Origin: Spirochaetaceae bacterium
GTDB taxonomy: Bacteria; Spirochaetota; Spirochaetia; Treponematales; Breznakiellaceae
Assembly: GCA_031284085.1 (NCBI GenBank)
Contig: JAITAM010000156.1
Span: 1 to 8,038, forward strand
Direction of reading: 5' to 3'
Length of the DNA stretch: 8,038 nt
The first letter of the stretch is position 1. Each line of letters starts with the position of its first letter. Below are positions 1 to 6,780 of this stretch, in pieces. The notes beneath the pieces are model-generated. The model worked only from the letters and a program-made list of their open reading frames with translations, was not told the DNA's origin and did no database searches. The position numbers and the translations under genes were made by a program.

Positions 1-595
1 CAAAAATTGAGAGAAGACGCTCTTTCCCCCGATATTACCCATTACACCATGGTTCGTCCGGCAGCAGCCGCAGGCACGGCCTGCTTGTAAGCAAAAAGCC
101 GCACCCCGCCCTTTGATAGTAGCGCCGGGAACTTGTGGAAGCTCTCCGCCTTATGTGATAATGGTCAGAACAGGCCAGACCTCAAGGCCAGCTTGTTTCA
201 ACGTTTCGGCATTGTATCGGGAGCGGAGGTACGGGTTTTTGGCTTTATAAACGATCGTAAAAGACTCATATTCCATAGAAAAAGGTTCGGCATTGTACCG
301 AGAATAAGCGCACACCTTTTGCCTACAGGCAGGTCAGCCTGCTCTAACCTTTCGATTGCTGTTCTACTCTCTGTTTGTTTATCATAGGGCGTTTTAAGTT
401 CTGACATAGTTCTGGCATGATACGGTCCAAACTGACAACTTTCTGAGGTCGGAGGTCTCAGCCGCAGGCTGCTTCAAAGGTTGTTGTATCGGGAATGGTG
501 TACGGCTTTTTGCCTGAAAGAAGCGGGAGAGGGAACGCAGGCACGGCCTCTTCCTAAACTTTGCGTTGTATCGGGAACGGAGTACGACTCTGACT
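1..595. repeat. Gene-poor region with degenerate REP-like modular repeats
   Basis: No ORF here has a credible start, ribosome site or recognisable domain. The stretch holds several imperfect copies of one motif. Its core is TTGTATCGGGA followed by a GTACGG-like stretch, then CTTTTTGCC, then a GCAGG/CCTGC hairpin. Copies are visible at about 204-248, 285-342, 479-520 and 557-590. An inverted copy at about 70-104 carries GCAAAAAGCCGCAC beside the hairpin GCAGGCACGGCCTGC. The 14-mer CGCAGGCACGGCCT occurs exactly at 69-82 and again at 536-549. A similar hairpin, GCAGGTCAGCCTGC, is at 329-342. The last copy ends six bases from the dehydrogenase stop codon. The arrangement resembles REP or MITE-type dispersed repeats that have accumulated between genes and decayed. 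No transposase or clear target-site duplication was seen. The repeat relationship is directly visible; its mobile origin is inferred. Confidence 0.6.
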
Positions 596-5127: not shown

Positions 5128-5817
5128 CTACGGGACAGTTACTGCGCTTACGGGTCCCCACGGGCCCGGTTCGTCTTTGGCGTTCATGTAACAGGCTGAA
5201 AGGTAGAGCATCATACCGCGGCATAAATCAAAGTCGATTTGAAGGTTTTTTCGTTTGCTTGTAATTCTGTTGGGCAGCTCTGACCCGCTTGTTGGAACTT
5301 CTGTCATCTTGATAAAGCTCCCTGCGCTCCCTTCTCCAATAAAGCCGAAGCCTATACAAACTTTTTCATCCGCACGGGGATCGTTTGAGGCTTTGCCGTT
5401 AAGGGGGCCTCTGTGGTTTAGCACAACTTGCCCGGGCGCAGGGAAGCTAACCGTTATGGAAGGCACAGCATCAGGCTGCGCTATGGGAGAATAGTTACGG
5501 TTCGGCATACGCAGCAGCAAAGCAGAGTAGTCCTCGTCTACCAAAGGCGGCGAAAGAAAAAAGCGCTCTTTAATATACTGCATTTTTGCGATAAGGGTGC
5601 TAAAGACACGGTTACATTCAGCAATGCTAATAGGAGAGCGTTCTCCTGAAAGGACATGGTCAAGGCAGGTTTCAGCCTGCGTGGTAAGCCCCCCCAGCTC
5701 TGTAATATCCTTGTCGGGAATACCCAGACTTGCACCTCGTGCGGTGCCGATTTCTGTCCATACTCTGGCCATATTGACCTGTTCAACCCGTTTAGTGGGA
5801 AGCCAGCGGTGTTTCAT
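5128..5817 (-). CDS. Conserved hypothetical protein with fibronectin-III-like C-terminus
   Basis: This 229-residue protein has no signal peptide or membrane helix and is predicted cytoplasmic. The N-terminal part (1-100, starting MKHRWLPTKR) is helical. It includes a conserved-looking segment around residues 70-95 (CNRVFSTLIAKMQYIKERFF, then LSPP). A proline-rich linker (about 105-125) follows. The last 105 residues look like a beta-sandwich, ending in LSACYMNAKDEPGPWGPV, the pattern of a fibronectin-III final strand. I recall proteins of this plan (MKxRWLPTK at the start, GPWGPV near the end) in Treponema and some Bacteroidetes, but cannot name a function. An adhesion-like or carbohydrate-related role would be a guess. 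The start is well supported by AAGGAG five bases before ATG. A TTGACA promoter lies upstream, next to the 21-bp repeat array, so the gene is divergent from the VOC gene. No clear terminator follows. Confidence 0.87.
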   Translation of the reverse strand: MKHRWLPTKRVEQVNMARVWTEIGTARGASLGIPDKDITELGGLTTQAETCLDHVLSGERSPISIAECNRVFSTLIAKMQYIKERFFLSPPLVDEDYSALLLRMPNRNYSPIAQPDAVPSITVSFPAPGQVVLNHRGPLNGKASNDPRADEKVCIGFGFIGEGSAGSFIKMTEVPTSGSELPNRITSKRKNLQIDFDLCRGMMLYLSACYMNAKDEPGPWGPVSAVTVP

Positions 5818-5888: not shown

Positions 5889-5917
5889 ATATTAGTTACC
5901 TCTATTACTCTTGTCAA
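5889..5917 (-). promoter_or_regulatory. Candidate promoter for the 229-residue gene
   Basis: On the minus strand a perfect TTGACA (5917-5912), 17-bp spacer and TAATAT (5894-5889) point toward the gene starting at 5817. The -10 is weak. The hexamer begins 15 bp from the tandem array. AAGTAATAT is directly repeated on the plus strand at 5884-5892 and 5916-5924, overlapping both promoter boxes. Confidence 0.45.
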
Positions 5918-5932
5918 GTAATATAATGATGA

Positions 5933-6163
5933 AATATGCACCGACATATTTAGAATATGCACCGACATATTTGGAATATGCACCGACATATTTAGAATAT
6001 GCACCGACATATTTGGAATACGCACCGACATATTTGGAATACGCACCGACATATTTGGAATATGTACCGACATATTTAGAATATGCACCGACATATTTGG
6101 AATATGCACCGACATATTTGGAATATGCACCGACATATTTAGAATATGCACCGACATATTCCG
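5933..6163. repeat. 21-bp tandem array, 11 copies, made of alternating inverted half-sites
   Basis: Eleven uninterrupted 21-bp units fill the divergent intergenic region. Each unit is AATATG, spacer CACCGA, CATATT, then linker TRG; the last unit ends CCG. AATATG and CATATT are reverse complements, so the array is a continuous string of dyads with alternating 6-bp and 3-bp spacers. Variation is limited to transitions: TAG or TGG linkers, AATACG in units 5 and 6 (6017-6058), and TACCGA in unit 7 (6059-6079). The period equals two helical turns, so all dyads would lie on one face of the DNA. Two frames are open through the array. One on plus reads YAPTYLE repeats (5911-6207) and one on minus reads NMSVHIP/L repeats (5873-6283). 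Neither has a ribosome site. I treat it as noncoding, possibly a regulator-binding or copy-number-variable element. Confidence 0.93.
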
Positions 6164-6178
6164 CGCTTCATTTGTCCC

Positions 6179-6208
6179 TTGACAATTCTGTACTATCGTG
6201 CCTATGAT
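6179..6208 (+). promoter_or_regulatory. Promoter for the VOC/ABC-transporter genes
   Basis: A perfect TTGACA (6179-6184), an 18-bp spacer and TATGAT (6203-6208, five of six consensus bases) lie 60 bp before the VOC start and 15 bp after the tandem array. Transcription would begin near 6215. The leader contains a small inverted repeat, GAATAA/TTATTC (6221-6236). Confidence 0.6.
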
Positions 6209-6267: not shown

Positions 6268-6780
6268 TTGGGAGTAAATTCAAAAACGGTTTGCCAAATT
6301 AACCTTGTCGTTAATAATTTGGATCAGCTTCTTGCAAATTACCGAAAAGCGTTTCCGGATCTTGCAGTGAAGATTTTTAACCTGCCTAAACCGGACGCGG
6401 TTCCAGCGTTCACAGACGGTAAACAGGGGGATTATTCGGATTGCCGCCTTGCAGTACTGGAATTTGAAAACCTTGTGCTTGAAATAACCGAACCCGGTGC
6501 CAGTGATAGTCCGTGGAAACGGTGGTTGGATGCACACGGGCCGGGAGTTGAACACATTGGGTTCAAAATTAGCGAGGCGGATAAAGATGAAACATTCAAA
6601 ACTCTAGAGGGCTGTGGAAGCAAATTGTACCATGCGGGTTTTTATCCGGGAGGCACGTACAGCTTTGTCGATGGGTTTGAATCTTTTGGCTTTGATTTTA
6701 ATATCAAATGGGATGCGGACAACAGCGAAAGGATTGCACATTGGAAAACGCATCCGCAGGAGACGCTTTCCAAAATTTGA
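6268..6780 (+). CDS. VOC (glyoxalase/bleomycin-resistance fold) family protein
   Basis: This 170-residue cytoplasmic protein has two beta-alpha-beta-beta-beta modules. Module one (about 8-75) runs from QINLVV to LVLEITEP. Module two (about 92-148) runs from GPGVEHIGFKI to FDFNIKW. The segment EITEPGASDSPWKRWLDAHG plus VEHIGF resembles methylmalonyl-CoA epimerase and lactoylglutathione-lyase relatives. Expected metal positions are only partly kept. Gln10 replaces the usual first His, Glu72 and His96 are plausible, and the final Glu seems replaced by Asp143 or Asn145. A metal enzyme with altered ligands is possible, and the substrate is unknown. Translation probably starts at TTG, supported by GAGGAGGG six bases upstream. 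A VOC gene beside a sugar ABC transporter suggests a role with the imported compound or its metabolism, which is an inference from context. Confidence 0.9.
   Translation: MGVNSKTVCQINLVVNNLDQLLANYRKAFPDLAVKIFNLPKPDAVPAFTDGKQGDYSDCRLAVLEFENLVLEITEPGASDSPWKRWLDAHGPGVEHIGFKISEADKDETFKTLEGCGSKLYHAGFYPGGTYSFVDGFESFGFDFNIKWDADNSERIAHWKTHPQETLSKI

Follow-up and report, generated by a model that had tools for sequence, protein, structure and literature searches.

The eleven-unit tandem repeat in the 8,038-nucleotide stretch of Spirochaetaceae DNA analysed here (the window) belongs to a class of arrays found upstream of one gene family, at most of the members examined, and the repeat unit is different each time. 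What is kept within this class is the 21-bp step and the dyad within the unit, while the sequence of the unit differs from gene to gene and changes faster than the encoded proteins. The class of gene-private, 21-bp-stepped dyad arrays is more interesting than the single array of the window. Tentatively, we read the window array as helically phased tandem operators for a predicted dimeric DNA-binding protein, a role that is quite possible and that resembles the cooperative operator proposed in an initial annotation of this DNA.

The window array and its neighbours

The features around the array, in the numbering of the window, are:

5128..5817, minus strand: gene for a 229-aa protein of a multicopy treponeme family, no Pfam match (ORF, family search, AlphaFold2 and PDB matches)
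5889..5917, minus strand: sigma70-like promoter TTGACA-17-TAATAT directed toward the 229-aa gene (consensus scan 10/12; a sequence match only)
5933..6163, no strand: array of eleven 21-bp units, consensus AATATGCACCGACATATTTRG (TRF, unit listing, pattern search with shuffles)
6179..6208, plus strand: sigma70-like promoter TTGACA-18-TATGAT directed toward the VOC-like gene (consensus scan 11/12; likewise a sequence match only)
6268..6780, plus strand: divergent VOC/glyoxalase-like protein of 170 aa with a TTG start (ORF; Pfam PF13669 Glyoxalase_4, E 1.9e-6)

Within the window TRF calls this array and no other; the call spans 5933-6160 with a score of 407, at period 21 and 10.9 copies, with 95% matches and free of indels. 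When read by unit the array consists of eleven 21-mers covering 5933-6163; the eleven-copy 21-bp array of the initial annotation is thus confirmed by both TRF and the unit listing. The same annotation had placed AATATG and CATATT in every unit, separated by alternating spacers of 6 and 3 bp, and this needs a slight correction. The exact form AATATG-N6-CATATT occurs nine times in the array, where 200 dinucleotide shuffles gave 0.01 on average, and the dyad is exact in 9/11 units since units 5 and 6 read AATACG. The short TNG spacer is present in 10/11 units, the final unit ending in CCG.

The array sits between the 229-aa gene on the minus strand and the VOC/glyoxalase-like gene on the plus strand. 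As first described, this is the sole divergent gap among the evident genes of the window, and it holds a promoter-like site on either side of the array, each with its TTGACA hexamer 15 bp from the eleven-unit block (the minus-strand site from 5917, the plus-strand site from 6179). Between 5100 and 6900 the scan gave 10 sigma70-like sites compared with 3.6 in shuffles, four of them weak (9/12) and inside or overlapping the array. The two-unit pattern of the window array proved private to the window, with no match outside it in four same-genus assemblies. A second array with the window unit was not found in genome G000 (67.6% complete), which counts against the operator reading.

AlphaFold2 models the 229-aa protein as a three-helix bundle followed by an FN3-like domain (pLDDT 92.8, pTM 0.61). 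Residues 112-229 match FN3 domains in the PDB, the matches listed all falling within residues 108-229, and on this model residues 112-229 are an FN3-like beta sandwich. No Pfam family was found for the protein, whose own family is multicopy in Treponema/Spirochaetaceae. As a separate observation, window positions 432-532 are a dispersed repeat, giving 55 blastn hits (E up to 1e-8), which start at window 400-499, against 40 other sampled contigs of G000.

Association of the arrays with one gene family

Of 135 relatives, the best 80 serve as the named loci, and many of these are paralogues or relatives of one another; seven with less than 200 bp of upstream DNA were left out, leaving 73. An array was counted when it had a period of 21, 42 or 63 bp and ended no more than 600 bp upstream of the gene. 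By this rule 68 of the 73 family loci carry an array, a count made without the merging of TRF calls (with merging, the array of L111 is called with period 62). The five loci that lack one argue against the operator reading. Among genes of at least 150 aa on random contigs of G000 and G002, an array was present at 29/308, and one of these 29 is itself a family gene (L054). This control was drawn from genomes other than those of most family loci; other genes at the same 80 loci were counted as well, with an array at 20/250, or 5/235 once genes sharing the array of the family gene are removed; on the downstream side of the family genes an array was found in 2/73. The Fisher p-values for the two gene controls, ~2e-45 and ~4e-45, overstate the evidence since relatedness among the loci violates independence. 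In a second set, 12 of 16 new loci carried an array.

The period of the arrays is also characteristic. Family loci have almost only multiples of 21, whereas 22 and 23 are frequent periods among arrays elsewhere. Among control genes, 20/308 are preceded by an array of the 22-24 type, and the abundance of such arrays in the same genomes is a further point against the operator reading. Random contigs of the two genomes contained 67 arrays of period 20-24 in 473 kb. The two-turn period emphasised initially stands for the window, where the spacing is exactly 21 bp, but such spacing is not universal, arrays of 22-23 bp being common in the same genomes. Many of the 22-24-bp arrays of G000 and G002 (for example L062:2859-3305, L083:4690-5339 and L076:11075-11695) were noted in passing, several with a GGTCAGACCTC or GAGGTCTGTCCCC core and without clear dyads.

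Taken genome by genome, G002 has a 21-class array at all 15 of its family hits, in L204 overlapping the called gene start. G000 has one at six of 10 hits (five arrays); of its four array-less hits, two lie at a contig end without upstream DNA and the other two are fragmentary (94 and 119 aa). In G138, a single contig of 3,855,671 bp, the two full-length family genes each have an array, with periods of 21 and 22, and no other array of period 20-24 was found in 520 kb of samples. G140, also a single contig, is less clear-cut: of its two partial matches, one lacks an array and has a tract of 61 C residues 100 bp upstream, and the other is preceded by a 21-bp array of three copies. The closest relative with readable upstream DNA (G003:C15, 57% identical) has no array in the 817 bp upstream, which again speaks against the operator reading. 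Our full-text literature searches found no description of these arrays among the matches listed.

Several minor observations concern the loci themselves. At the array-less relative in L008, one inverted repeat (CATTGTGCAGA and its complement) was seen by eye upstream of the family gene, at L008:2300-2375. Family genes with 21-bp arrays (weak in L152) were also met in L101, L158 and L152, on contigs labelled Planctomycetaceae or Azoarcus that are perhaps misbinned. Repeat-rich proteins resembling BspA-type leucine-rich-repeat lipoproteins by eye occur in 12/80 family loci, mostly downstream of the family gene (e.g. L095:1485-3119).

Spacing and symmetry are kept while the unit changes

Over 70 arrays, the dyad symmetry of the unit amounts to 5.66 of 8 pairs against 4.92 in shuffles (z 9.8). 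It persists in 34 non-redundant units (z 4.5) and in 82 orphan 21-bp units (z 6.4), and is not clear in units of 22 and 23 bp (z 1.7 each). The positions that form the dyad also vary less within an array than the remaining ones, 0.109 against 0.177 (62 arrays, Wilcoxon p 8e-6), and comparison with permuted or rotated columns gave z -7.1 and -6.8 in arrays of at least five units, a result for the class and not for the window array alone. Arrays of fewer than five units were left out of the counts of column variation, and L138 was omitted from alignment A2 because of a stop codon. Constraint on the dyad columns without an RNA or coding signature would fit protein-bound DNA.

The units in the array of L250 in G138 have diverged (69% matches), yet 9/9 strong gapless dyad centres lie on one 21-bp comb; taken by itself, the count of nine is a moderate excess over the 3.4 expected (sd 1.8, largest 10 in 500 shuffles). 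The regularity of the step must be read with some care: the unit splitter advances 21 bp at a time and tolerates a deviation of 2, so that 614/626 exact 21-bp steps arise partly by construction. For the period, the source is TRF.

Unit sequences are shared (at least 16/21 bases) by 16/20 pairs of proteins more than 90% identical, as opposed to 40/819 pairs at 60-80% identity. Words such as GACTT, TGACT and GAGTC are modestly enriched, but no core motif common to all units was found. In the third of G002 that was sampled, orphan arrays repeat six of the 15 units that adjoin family genes, again at a threshold of 16/21 bases, which was reached by none of 4,000 shuffled pairs; two of these units appear in 10 and 11 of the 66 orphans, another in three, and three more in one each. 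The corresponding figure in G000 is none of five family-adjacent units among 16 orphans, with one match at 16 across genomes. The genes beside the G002 orphan arrays comprise a group of similar lipoprotein-like proteins, recognised by eye, and unrelated genes, so the recurrence could reflect a small regulon or copied upstream DNA. We also noted ten G002 arrays with a common CTCATA-type unit (L073, L089, L086, L216, L077), some before two similar proteins of 728-739 aa that are chemoreceptor-like by eye and others at unrelated genes.

The family protein itself is unlikely to recognise its own array in a simple lock-and-key fashion, since proteins that are 60-80% identical mostly have unrelated units.

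It is useful to set these arrays beside known tandem repeats. Plasmid iterons are tandem repeats of ~17-22 bp beside a gene, spaced ~two helical turns apart and bound by Rep proteins, and the window array resembles them in its position beside a gene and its spacing of about two turns. Unlike iterons, it has no Rep-like protein beside it, such arrays are present in many copies per genome, and the adjacent protein does not track the unit. An iteron-type replication origin is not supported, the adjacent products being a family protein without a Pfam match, FN3-like in its C-terminal half (listed matches within residues 108-229), and a VOC-like protein. No plasmid match was found, and a viral origin was likewise discarded, six viral contigs having a single 18-mer match apiece. 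At the hmw1/hmw2 genes of Haemophilus influenzae, variable 7-bp promoter repeats at paralogous genes tune expression. The treponeme arrays share with them the setting, repeats in front of paralogous genes, but the hmw repeats are 7 bp long and have one common unit, whereas each treponeme gene has its own, longer dyad unit. REP/BIME palindromes, which go with RAYT transposases, are intergenic palindromic repeats that differ between lineages. This description applies to the treponeme arrays too; these, however, have a strict head-to-tail 21-bp step, and no transposase gene lies beside the window array. Finally, a study of TAACTGA heptamer arrays in Beggiatoaceae, cyanobacteria and Bacteroidetes (MacGregor 2015, PMC4679880) describes many intergenic direct repeats close upstream of start codons, as here, for which binding of a regulator was proposed; there the heptamer sequence is fixed and no evident pattern in downstream gene functions is reported. 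The treponeme arrays, in contrast, keep the 21-bp step and the dyad and not the sequence, and are found at one gene family at most examined loci. A TAACTGA-type array is ruled out for the window, whose unit is a 21-mer without TAACTGA.

Candidate operators and the alternatives

If the window array consists of operators, each unit would bind one dimer of the candidate DNA-binding protein, with every dimer on one common helical face. Dimers at sites two turns apart would presumably bind cooperatively, and binding might raise or lower transcription of the 229-aa gene, and perhaps also that of the VOC-like gene, with the copy number of the array tuning the response. The array probably expands, contracts and homogenises through slippage or gene conversion; homogenisation of this kind would give each family member its own unit while the geometry is kept. 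The operator proposal of the initial annotation draws support from the dyad half-sites, the 21-bp spacing, the flanking promoter-like sites, the constrained dyad columns at related loci and the lack of an RNA or coding signature. It is weakened by the many related loci at which the array abuts the gene with no recognisable promoter in front, and it has to be revised in that the array belongs to a class whose unit differs at each family gene. Among the 12 largest groups of 409 neighbour ORFs at the family loci we recognised no recurrent regulator by eye, another point against the operator reading.

The position of promoters is mixed across the loci. Promoter-like sites scoring at least 10/12 occur between array and gene at 7/70 loci and within 200 bp upstream of the array at 7/63 loci, with 1.2 expected in each case. 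Most loci therefore show none and the side varies, which does not favour operators. In L092 such a site lies 8 bp before the array; both full-length family genes of G138 have, by eye, a promoter-like site between array and gene. The median distance from the array to the start of the matched protein is 84 bp; it is at most 65 bp in 23/70 arrays and at most 130 bp in 59/70, and arrays often adjoin the ribosome-binding site. For the 23 arrays closest to the start, a transcribed leader is as natural as an operator. An array acting within the mRNA leader on translation or message stability, as proposed for the Beggiatoaceae heptamers, would account for these distances and for the sites upstream of the array, and the mixed promoter positions together with the short distances make a leader role possible for part of the family. 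As a general explanation it is nevertheless unlikely. Mismatches in the dyads are G/T in 222 cases and A/C in 235, with no G-U wobble bias, and the arms do not covary (z 0.16 over 52 arrays, those with fewer than four usable units or weak dyads being left out; both sides changed in 65 cases against 59.6 expected). Both results favour a dimer that reads the DNA sequence, and speak less for a hairpin of RNA or DNA. No Rfam family was found in the window, where the good minus-strand promoter falls between the array and the gene and would thus leave the array outside the message of the 229-aa gene.

The arrays might also be neutral tandem satellites, slippage-prone intergenic DNA that piles up in repeat-rich genomes and has no function. 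The density of period-20-24 arrays on random contigs, the fast turnover of the units and the closest relative with readable but array-free upstream DNA are all as such an origin would have it. Satellites without function would not be expected, however, to be strongly enriched at a single gene family and on the upstream side of its genes, or to show multiples of 21 almost exclusive to that family with many of 22 and 23 elsewhere, constrained dyad columns, or a genome such as G138 where arrays stand at both full-length family genes and no other 20-24-bp array was seen in the samples. We regard this explanation as improbable.

Returning to operators, a broader proposal would be that geometry and not sequence is inherited: each member of the large FN3-like family in gut treponemes would have a private, self-homogenising array of dyads two turns apart, and its reader would be a regulator that diversifies fast or recognises shape. 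Dozens of paralogues could in this way be switched or tuned singly, some arrays recruiting other genes into small regulons. In this full form the proposal is rather unlikely. Were the operator reading true, the arrays would represent a cis-regulatory class that keeps spacing and symmetry while its sequence turns over almost freely, and that is tied to one expanded treponeme gene family. They would then offer a test case for the co-evolution of DNA-binding specificity and its sites, and for selection on helical phasing.

Arrays serving as hot spots of recombination or gene conversion, aiding the multiplication or reshuffling of the family, seem quite improbable. The family is multicopy, and the recurrence of six of the 15 G002 units at other genes is what upstream copying would give, but no recombinase was recognised by eye in the 12 largest neighbour groups, and paralogues mostly have unrelated units, so that homology between arrays is usually absent.

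Least probable is a coding role, in which the array, whose 21 bp equal seven codons, would specify a heptapeptide-repeat peptide. Such a peptide might be switched by 7-bp or poly-C tracts lying upstream, and its production might be coupled to that of the next gene. In its favour, family loci have arrays almost only in multiples of 21, and frame +2 relative to the gene is open in 45/69 arrays against 24 and 25 for the other frames (22/34 non-redundant units against 14 and 14), a surplus that also counts against operators. Variation, however, is spread about evenly over the three codon positions, and in each of the three sense frames the numbers of synonymous and stop-gain variants are close to chance.

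In L099, L102, L112, L116, L130, L132 and L145 we noted open frames of ~150-205 codons. Starting from the 7-bp array or the spacer, they cross the 21-bp array in +2 and end near the start of the family gene, with no signal of coding selection in the arrays. At loci with at least 120 bp before the array, a 7-bp array was present in 17/61 (e.g. L103, L112, L132) and a poly-C/G tract of at least 9 in 16/61 (poly-C, e.g. L104, L127, L157), within ~400 bp; the random contigs contained six poly-C/G tracts in 473 kb. These upstream 7-bp and poly-C tracts are a possible phase-variation element.
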